The position numbers were made by a program, and so were the translations under genes. This document shows, piece by piece, positions 44,985-49,909 of a DNA stretch of 64,000 nucleotides. The notes under the pieces are model-generated. The model did no database searches, was not told the origin of the DNA, and saw only the letters and a program-made list of their open reading frames with translations. Position 1 is the stretch's first letter. Every line of letters begins with the position of its first letter. Location of the stretch: the NCBI RefSeq assembly GCF_000802205.1, contig NZ_CP012850.1:1240001-1304000 (forward strand), read 5' to 3'. The DNA comes from Candidatus Nitrosocosmicus oleophilus (GTDB lineage: Archaea > Thermoproteota > Nitrososphaeria > Nitrososphaerales > Nitrososphaeraceae).

Positions 44985-46208
44985 ATGCTAAAGATTATGC
45001 CATTTAATCTACTATTAATATTCTTAGTAGTGGTAGTAACAGGTACAGGTACACAAGCAATCTTTAATCAAAACGTATTAGCACAAAACTCAGGTGAAGA
45101 CGGTTCCCGTGGATTAAATTTTGATAGTCTATTCGGAAGTAGCAAAGAAGGTTTCAGCTTCGATGAATTGTTCCCATTTGGTGATTCTAGCACTTCTGGT
45201 TCTCAGGATGAATCATCATCTAGCGATGATGACTCCACTTCTGGCTCTCAGGATGAATCTGCAGCTACTGATCCATTGGGTGGAATCGATCTTGTATTTC
45301 CATTCAATGATATTCAATCTCCAAAAGCACAATCTGATACACCATCTGAAGATTCAAGCTCCGCTAGTCCAGACGACGATAGTAAATCTCTAACTCCTCA
45401 GAAAGAATCAGCTTCTGACGATGATAAGGCAACAAGCTCTGCTGACGATGATAAGGCAACAAGCTCTGCTGACGATGATAAGGCAACAAGCTCTGCTGAC
45501 GATGATAAGGCAACAAGCTCTGCTGACGATGATAAGGCAACAAGCTCTGCTGACGATGAAAAGACAACAAGCTCTGCTGACGATGAAAAGACAACAAGCT
45601 CTGCTGACGATGAAAAGACAACAAGCTCTGCTGACGATGAAAAGACAACAAGCTCTGCTGACGATGAAAAGACAACAAGCTCTGCTGACGATGAAAAGAC
45701 AACAAGCTCTGCTGACGATGAAAAGACAACAAGCTCTGCTGACGATGAAAAGACAACAAGCTCTGCTGACGATGAAAAGACAACAAGCTCTGCTGACGAT
45801 GAAAAGACAACAAGCTCTGATGAAGACAACGCAAAATCAGGCTCTGATGAAGACAACGCAAAATCAAGCTCTGCTGACGATGAAAAGACAACAAGCTCTG
45901 ATGAAGACAACGCAAAATCAGGCTCTGATGAAGACAACGCAAAATCAAGCTCTGCTGACGATGAAAAGACAACAAGCTCTGATGAAGACAACGCAAAATC
46001 AGGCTCTGATGAAGACAACGCAAAATCAAGCTCTGCTGACGATGAAAAGACAACAAGCTCTGATGACGATGAAAAGACAAGCTCTGACAGCTCTCGTATG
46101 ATTGCTCCTCAAAGTGAGACTACAACAACAGAAACAGGTAAACCAGTAGCTCCTCAAAGTGAGACTACAACAACAGAAACAGGTAAACCAGTAGCTCCAA
46201 TAGCATAA
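44985..46208 (+). CDS. Secreted acidic tandem-repeat protein
   Basis: 407 residues. A signal peptide (FNLLLIFLVVVVTGTGTQA) is followed by a short unique part (DSLFGSSKEGFSFDELFPFG, residues 42-90), then a very long repeat block of nine-residue units SSADDDKAT and SSADDEKTT, then SDEDNAKSGSDEDNAKSS units interleaved with SADDEKTT, and finally two copies of PQSETTTTETGKPVA. Highly acidic and Ser/Thr-rich, likely disordered and exposed at the cell surface, perhaps glycosylated or cation-binding. The copy number probably varies between strains. Confidence 0.85.
   Translation: MLKIMPFNLLLIFLVVVVTGTGTQAIFNQNVLAQNSGEDGSRGLNFDSLFGSSKEGFSFDELFPFGDSSTSGSQDESSSSDDDSTSGSQDESAATDPLGGIDLVFPFNDIQSPKAQSDTPSEDSSSASPDDDSKSLTPQKESASDDDKATSSADDDKATSSADDDKATSSADDDKATSSADDDKATSSADDEKTTSSADDEKTTSSADDEKTTSSADDEKTTSSADDEKTTSSADDEKTTSSADDEKTTSSADDEKTTSSADDEKTTSSADDEKTTSSDEDNAKSGSDEDNAKSSSADDEKTTSSDEDNAKSGSDEDNAKSSSADDEKTTSSDEDNAKSGSDEDNAKSSSADDEKTTSSDDDEKTSSDSSRMIAPQSETTTTETGKPVAPQSETTTTETGKPVAPIA
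45417..46080 (+). repeat. 27-bp tandem repeat array within the secreted protein
   Basis: Five copies of a 27-bp unit of the type GACGATGATAAGGCAACAAG+CTCTGCT, then about ten copies with GACGATGAAAAGACAACAAG, then a higher-order repeat in which GATGAAGACAACGCAAAATC units alternate with the previous type, three times. All keep the reading frame and are almost identical at DNA level, indicating recent expansion by slippage or recombination. Confidence 0.9.
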
Positions 46209-49811: not shown

Positions 49812-49909
49812 GGGCTCGTAGCGCAGACTTTGTCTAATCAAAGGTGCATAATGGATAGCGCGGACGCCTCCTAAGCGTCAGGCCGAGGGTTCAAATCCCT
49901 CCGGGCCCG
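49812..49909 (+). tRNA. tRNA-Arg(CCU) with a 23-nt intron in the D-arm
   Basis: Acceptor GGGCTCG pairs with CGGGCCC (one G-U) and discriminator G; CCA is not encoded. Anticodon stem GACGC/GCGTC with loop CTCCTAA gives anticodon CCT (reads AGG). T-arm GAGGGTTCAAATCCCTC is perfect. Bases between the D-stem strands exceed the normal size: after TAGCGCA, 23 nt (49826-49848, GACTTTGTCTAATCAAAGGT+GCA) are extra; removal leaves a self-complementary GCGC/GCGC D-stem with loop A14 to A21 including GG. The extra segment folds as CTTTG/CAAAG with bulges, like an archaeal bulge-helix-bulge. Exact cut points are ambiguous by the repeated GCA. Confidence 0.93.

Follow-up and report, generated by a model that had tools for sequence, protein, structure and literature searches.

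The tRNA-Arg(CCU) gene of Candidatus Nitrosocosmicus oleophilus very probably carries a 23-nt intron in its D-loop (49827-49849), placed after nt 15 and excised by bulge-helix-bulge (BHB) splicing through an (alpha-beta)2 endonuclease, giving a 75-nt tRNA whose D-stem would have switched its pairing partner. The intron is real, well supported and of an already known archaeal type; what is added here is its exact border, its conservation and its recurrence at position 15/16. The analysis fixes the border of a noncanonical intron that escapes a simple tRNA finder and backs it with a comparison across many loci, and it describes an insertion site conserved in two ammonia-oxidising archaeal families and found in three different tRNAs.

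The tRNA-Arg(CCU) gene and its detection

Inspection of the window, that is, the whole 64,000-nt stretch of DNA that was analysed, which belongs to one archaeal contig of 3.43 Mb, located the body of a tRNA-Arg(CCU) gene exactly where a preliminary description of the sequence had put it, with a 7-bp acceptor stem, an anticodon arm bearing CCU and a T-arm all present (Table 1). The Rfam tRNA model RF00005 matched the gene partially (model positions 10-63, E 8.3e-5), and ARAGORN detected no tRNA in the entire 64-kb window; the unspliced gene likewise returned nothing in ARAGORN, and all three trial splices returned tRNA-Arg(cct). The expectation that such a gene would be hidden from simple tRNA searches therefore holds for ARAGORN, but has to be qualified for tRNAscan-SE 2.0, which is described as having an intron model trained on Thaumarchaeota (PMC8450103). 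A search pattern composed of the D-loop and anticodon arm of tRNA-Arg(CCU) matched this genome once, making this the sole such gene found by the pattern used.

Table 1. Features of the intron-containing tRNA-Arg(CCU) gene, in window coordinates. A slash within a bulge marks the predicted cut.
Feature	Position	Strand	Basis
tRNA-Arg(CCU), intron-containing, 98 bases	49812..49909	+	Sequence; Rfam RF00005, partial, 10-63; ARAGORN after intron removal
5' exon, nt 1-15 (acceptor 5' strand, nt 8-9, D-stem 5' strand, A14 G15)	49812..49826	+	Second-bulge-base cut rule as described in PMC4307357; intronless archaeal relatives
Noncanonical intron, 23 nt, position 15/16	49827..49849	+	Common site in 119/167 parsed tRNA-Arg(CCU) loci
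D-stem 5' strand GCGC, nt 10-13; predicted partner in the precursor is the intron (central helix H)	49821..49824	+	MFE fold, whole gene; register test
Intron strand GTGC of central helix H (predicted)	49844..49847	+	MFE fold, register test; paired change GCGT/ACGC in L150
5' bulge AG/A, 5' splice site after G15	49825..49827	+	A14 G15 in 83/83 distinct introns; third bulge base A in 79/83
Inner helix CTTTG/CAAAG, loop TCTAAT	49828..49843	+	Covariation counts vs shuffles; genus-level table
3' bulge AT/A, 3' splice site before first 3'-exon base	49848..49850	+	Geometry; AAT opens 3' exon in 12/12 distinct genus introns
3' exon, nt 16 to nt 73	49850..49909	+	Sequence; ARAGORN after splicing
D-stem 3' strand GCGC, nt 22-25; rivals the intron for nt 10-13	49858..49861	+	Forced folds
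Anticodon CCT	49870..49872	+	Sequence; ARAGORN

Borders of the intron

The insert follows nt 15 in the D-loop and is flanked by intact D-stem strands (nt 10-13 and 22-25); it was assigned to the D-loop because the length of that loop in intronless relatives fits the spliced form. The preliminary description had counted the 23 extra bases correctly and placed them within the D-stem, which is not where they sit, both strands being whole. Intronless relatives read, for instance, GCGCAG-CAT-GG or GCGCAG-TAT-GG, equal in length to the GCGCAG-AAT-GG predicted after splicing, and AG followed by three nucleotides and GG, the length that splicing predicts, was found in 40 of the 48 intronless loci, among them 40 of the 41 archaeal ones. 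The remaining eight have 1-2 nt there; seven of them carry a bacterial title, and L187 is labelled Hadesarchaea. Removal of the insert, which lies away from position 37/38, restores a canonical tRNA, and inserts at this position were found in 119 of the 167 parsed loci, in support of the original suggestion of a noncanonical D-arm intron.

The border was set after G15 because the bulge geometry and the published cut rule both point there: archaeal tRNA introns are described as cleaved between residues 2 and 3 of the bulges beside the central helix (PMC4307357), and a cut at that point in each of the two 3-nt bulges yields the conserved tRNA here. Under this assignment AG stands at nt 14-15 in all 83 distinct introns, as it does in 47 of 48 intronless loci, L164 from a bacterial record being the one that differs. 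A cut one base earlier, after A14 and between two GCA repeats, would leave the intron length unchanged and give the D-loop AUAAUGG in an acceptable cloverleaf, which ARAGORN accepts equally; the GCA repeat is real and present at both edges of the insert, as had been noticed from the start, but the border drawn from it falls one base 5' of the predicted cut, G15 belonging to the 5' exon. Cutting after A14 would make nt 15 variable (A, G, T and C in 57, 17, 7 and 2 of the 83 distinct introns), yet G15 is present in 47/48 intronless loci, and G15 and C48 of this tRNA fit a Levitt pair, in which C48 expects G15. The earlier cut would also break the rule on the second and third bulge residues (PMC4307357), and we regard it as very unlikely.

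Still less credence can be given to a 25-nt intron at position 13/14, which would keep a perfect 4-bp D-stem, leave the D-loop AAUGGAUA and be accepted by ARAGORN; it would lose G15 and two loop bases, against the AG plus three bases before GG of the archaeal intronless loci, and it mismatches the bulge geometry.

Predicted fold of the precursor and proposed splicing

In the MFE fold of the whole precursor, the GCGC of nt 10-13 pairs with a GUGC near the 3' end of the intron (4/4 pairs, one of them G-U), followed by an AGA bulge and a 5-bp helix, CUUUG/CAAAG. When only the first 50 bases were folded, the helix was displaced, with nt 12-14 and not nt 10-13 paired with the intron, and forced folds gave -37.4 kcal/mol with central helix H and -36.5 kcal/mol with the D-stem; because the gap is 0.9 kcal/mol and the 50-base fold is shifted, we make no strong claim of exclusive folding. 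Nt 8-9 (UA) are open in the MFE fold and do not pair with bases past the 3' bulge, so the motif departs from the strict hBHBh' form; a central helix, a bulge and an intron-side helix are predicted, without an exon-side helix. On this modelled fold the intron motif is of the relaxed HBh' type, so that the bulge-helix-bulge fold first proposed is upheld in kind, without the exon-side helix that would close the 3' bulge. Relaxed HBh' motifs are described with the same parts, namely a central helix, one complete bulge and an intron-side helix (PMC4090602, PMC6379350, PMC7714728), and the difference, none of principle, is that here a D-stem strand replaces anticodon-loop bases in the central helix.

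In the proposed pathway, the D-stem 5' strand would pair in the precursor with the GUGC near the intron 3' end, giving a layout of central helix, 5' bulge AG/A, intron hairpin, GUGC strand and 3' bulge AU/A. An (alpha-beta)2 endonuclease would cleave both bulges behind their second base, a ligase would join the two exons, and the freed D-strand would pair with nt 22-25 to form a normal 75-nt tRNA with the D-loop AGAAUGGAUA. Since nt 10-13 would pair with the intron before splicing and with nt 22-25 after it, the D-stem must switch partner, a step that is plausible on the modelled folds. We infer that the gene is transcribed, that cutting and ligation actually take place and that the D-stem changes its partner. 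If the partner switch is real, this gene would lend itself well to asking whether a tRNA can fold and be modified only once its intron has been removed.

Conservation of the intron structure

Structure counts use the 83 distinct introns, because some genomes entered the set of 167 parsed loci through records in two collections. For the central helix, the proposed register gave 294 of 332 possible pairs, the best of seven registers; the next best (239) is shifted by two bases, probably owing to the GC repeat. A full 4-bp central helix was present in 48/83 introns and a G.A at nt 10 in 34/83. The exon side of this helix is nearly invariant, and in L150 a change from GCGC to GCGU is accompanied by the intron partner ACGC. 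The inner helix had a mean of 4.1 contiguous pairs; over 200 shuffles the mean was 0.64, and no shuffle exceeded a mean of 0.92. Counted inward from the 5' bulge, its pairs 1-5 were formed in 82/83, 80/83, 75/79, 55/73 and 29/33 scorable introns, in each case above the maximum of 500 shuffles (60, 70, 58, 46 and 21), with the proviso that the shuffle controls ignore kinship and that a large share of the variation lies between two families. Within the genus (12 distinct introns), pair 2 is C-G in seven and U-A in five, and pair 5 is G-C in eight, U-A in three and A-U in one; loops vary between introns, and the inner helix is kept through changes on both sides.

Because 119 of 167 loci share the insertion site and the inner helix lies far above the shuffles, the insert is not due to chance. 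That the extra bases are retained as an enlarged D-arm, or that the gene is a decayed copy, is scarcely tenable, given that the insert is missing in intronless relatives, that its length differs between species (14-35 nt) inside exons that hardly vary, that paired changes preserve its helix, and that the pattern finds no second tRNA-Arg(CCU) in the genome.

Distribution among relatives

Within the genus, the pattern matched 14 of 15 genomes, and all 14 carried the intron; among the 15 searched, one genome (G010) had no pattern match. Within the order, 193 of 300 sampled genomes were matched and 107 were not. For genus and order together, the intron was present in 65 of 90 parsed loci, which represent part of the matching order genomes. 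In family f1, 31 loci had the intron and nine lacked it, all nine in a single genus (g4) with the D-stem GCTC/GAGC; in family f9, Nitrosopumilaceae-like in its introns and in the titles of matching records, 34 loci had it and three lacked it; in six other families of the order, all 13 loci were intronless. Across all collections, the intron-bearing loci (119/167) comprised 83 distinct introns of 14-35 nt. The 167 were parsed from 174 pattern loci, seven being dropped as unparsable (L047, L056, L100, L111, L136, L153 and L162), of which L153 and L162, near contig ends, may be true genes that were cut off; from one collection, the 80 listed of 120 matching stretches were parsed for this set.

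Two further observations concern single loci. A locus titled Bathyarchaeota (L213) and one from an uncultured archaeon (L146) have a 31-nt tRNA-Arg(CCU) intron at 15/16, with a hairpin of its own sequence. One genome of genus g3 (G192) contains a Nitrosocosmicus-type tRNA-Arg(CCU) intron (L102) in addition to its own copy of the gene (L112); L102 is likely a binning error and was kept in the counts.

Genes for the splicing endonuclease

The genome encodes two members of the splicing-endonuclease family PF01974, one a catalytic and one a structural subunit. The alpha subunit (184 aa) aligned over nearly its full length with 2cv8 and 3p1z, the catalytic endonuclease chains from Sulfolobus tokodaii and Aeropyrum pernix, respectively, with Y, H and K aligned. 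Its segment GYFGKPLGISKPKNA aligned without gaps with GYYGKPIGISKPKSA of 2cv8 and GYYGQPLDVEKPRGA of 3p1z, a stretch that may correspond to the Crenarchaea-specific loop linked to a broad substrate range. In the beta subunit, a threonine is aligned where 1a79 has histidine. Tyr, His and Lys are described as catalytic in splicing endonuclease (PMC12397907), Thaumarchaeota have been assigned the (alpha-beta)2 type (PMC4090602), and enzymes of that type are said to accept a wide variety of substrates (PMC6379350, PMC7714728). Judged from their sequences, the two subunit genes fit the (alpha-beta)2 type.

Other tRNA introns in the genome and order

The claim that D-arm introns are rare does not apply in this lineage: among 37 tRNA matches of the genome, part of them resolved by hand, at least four have a D-arm intron. 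The tRNA-Asp(GUC) and tRNA-Glu(UUC) genes have introns at 15/16 too, and tRNA-Gln(UUG) (L031, G000:C1:883376-883650) has a 16-nt intron at 10/11; in all three, removal gives the right tRNA in ARAGORN. In the family (15 genomes), the 15/16 intron was present in 14/14 Asp and 14/14 Glu loci found, and in 15 other genomes of the order in 2/9 Asp and 0/11 Glu loci found, with an exact Asp/Glu pattern that may have missed genes.

In a cross-pairing test of D-stems against introns, in which G-U pairs blur the contrast, the Arg D-stem scored 0.88 with its own introns, 0.75 with Glu and 0.53 with Asp introns; the Asp D-stem scored 0.83 with its own, 0.75 with Glu and 0.65 with Arg introns; and the Glu D-stem scored 1.0 with its own and 0.89 with Arg introns. 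The test does not discriminate, because the GUGU of tRNA-Glu pairs through G-U with almost every partner strand.

A broader reading, which we consider unlikely, is that 15/16 is a lineage-wide intron site in tRNA-Arg(CCU), tRNA-Asp(GUC) and tRNA-Glu(UUC), at which the intron would stand in for the D-stem 3' strand; the D-arm would be misfolded by design until splicing, which would thereby serve as a checkpoint on folding before the D-arm is modified and the tRNA charged, and a GCGCAG repeat would have been a cheap route to intron birth in Arg(CCU). Because the GCGC of the Arg(CCU) D-stem is palindromic, the inverted pairing that is needed arises as soon as GCGCAG is directly repeated; an exact direct repeat of GCGCAG was found in 8 of the 83 distinct introns. 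A published model for the tRNA-Thr(GGU) intron of Caldiarchaeum also concerns intron gain in an archaeal tRNA gene, and there a mobile element is implicated (PMC3293823).

Relation to known archaeal introns

Noncanonical tRNA introns in the D-arm, the T-arm and elsewhere are established in archaea (PMC12397907, PMC6379350). The D-arm introns of S. tokodaii tRNA-Glu(UUC) and tRNA-Glu(CUC), which were cleaved in vitro by the endonuclease at the predicted borders, resemble the present one in being noncanonical, in the D-arm and of BHB-like structure, but belong to another tRNA in another archaeal lineage, with border bases C22, A23, A24, G25 and C26 in that paper's own numbering (PMC4307357). Closer in lineage and of the same kind are the 107 noncanonical introns in Thaumarchaeota genomes reported with the trained tRNAscan-SE 2.0 model, the supplement of which may list this very intron (PMC8450103). 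In the literature searched, the tRNAscan-SE supplements and GtRNAdb aside, we found no report of a D-arm intron in thaumarchaeal tRNA-Arg(CCU), and no claim to a first report is made.

Additional observations

At L034 (G000:C1:416600-416860), probably a tRNA-Trp(CCA) gene, both the anticodon loop and the T-loop appear to hold an insert, and ARAGORN reported no tRNA there. In the tRNA-Glu genes of f9 genomes (L285, L287, L290, L293, L295 and L301), the T-arm breaks off after GGGTTCAAA or GGGTCCAAA, which from the sequence looks as if T-loop introns were present. A 61-base tRNA-Gly-like piece (L036, G000:C1:3378087-3378147) has D- and T-arms without a proper anticodon arm; it lies about 10 kb from tRNA-Gly(CCC) at 3387913, has similar bases on its 5' side and may mark an integrated element. 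Elsewhere in the window, a long open reading frame (44985-46208) encodes acidic, Ser/Thr-rich tandem repeats behind a hydrophobic start, and the repeat keeps other frames open.
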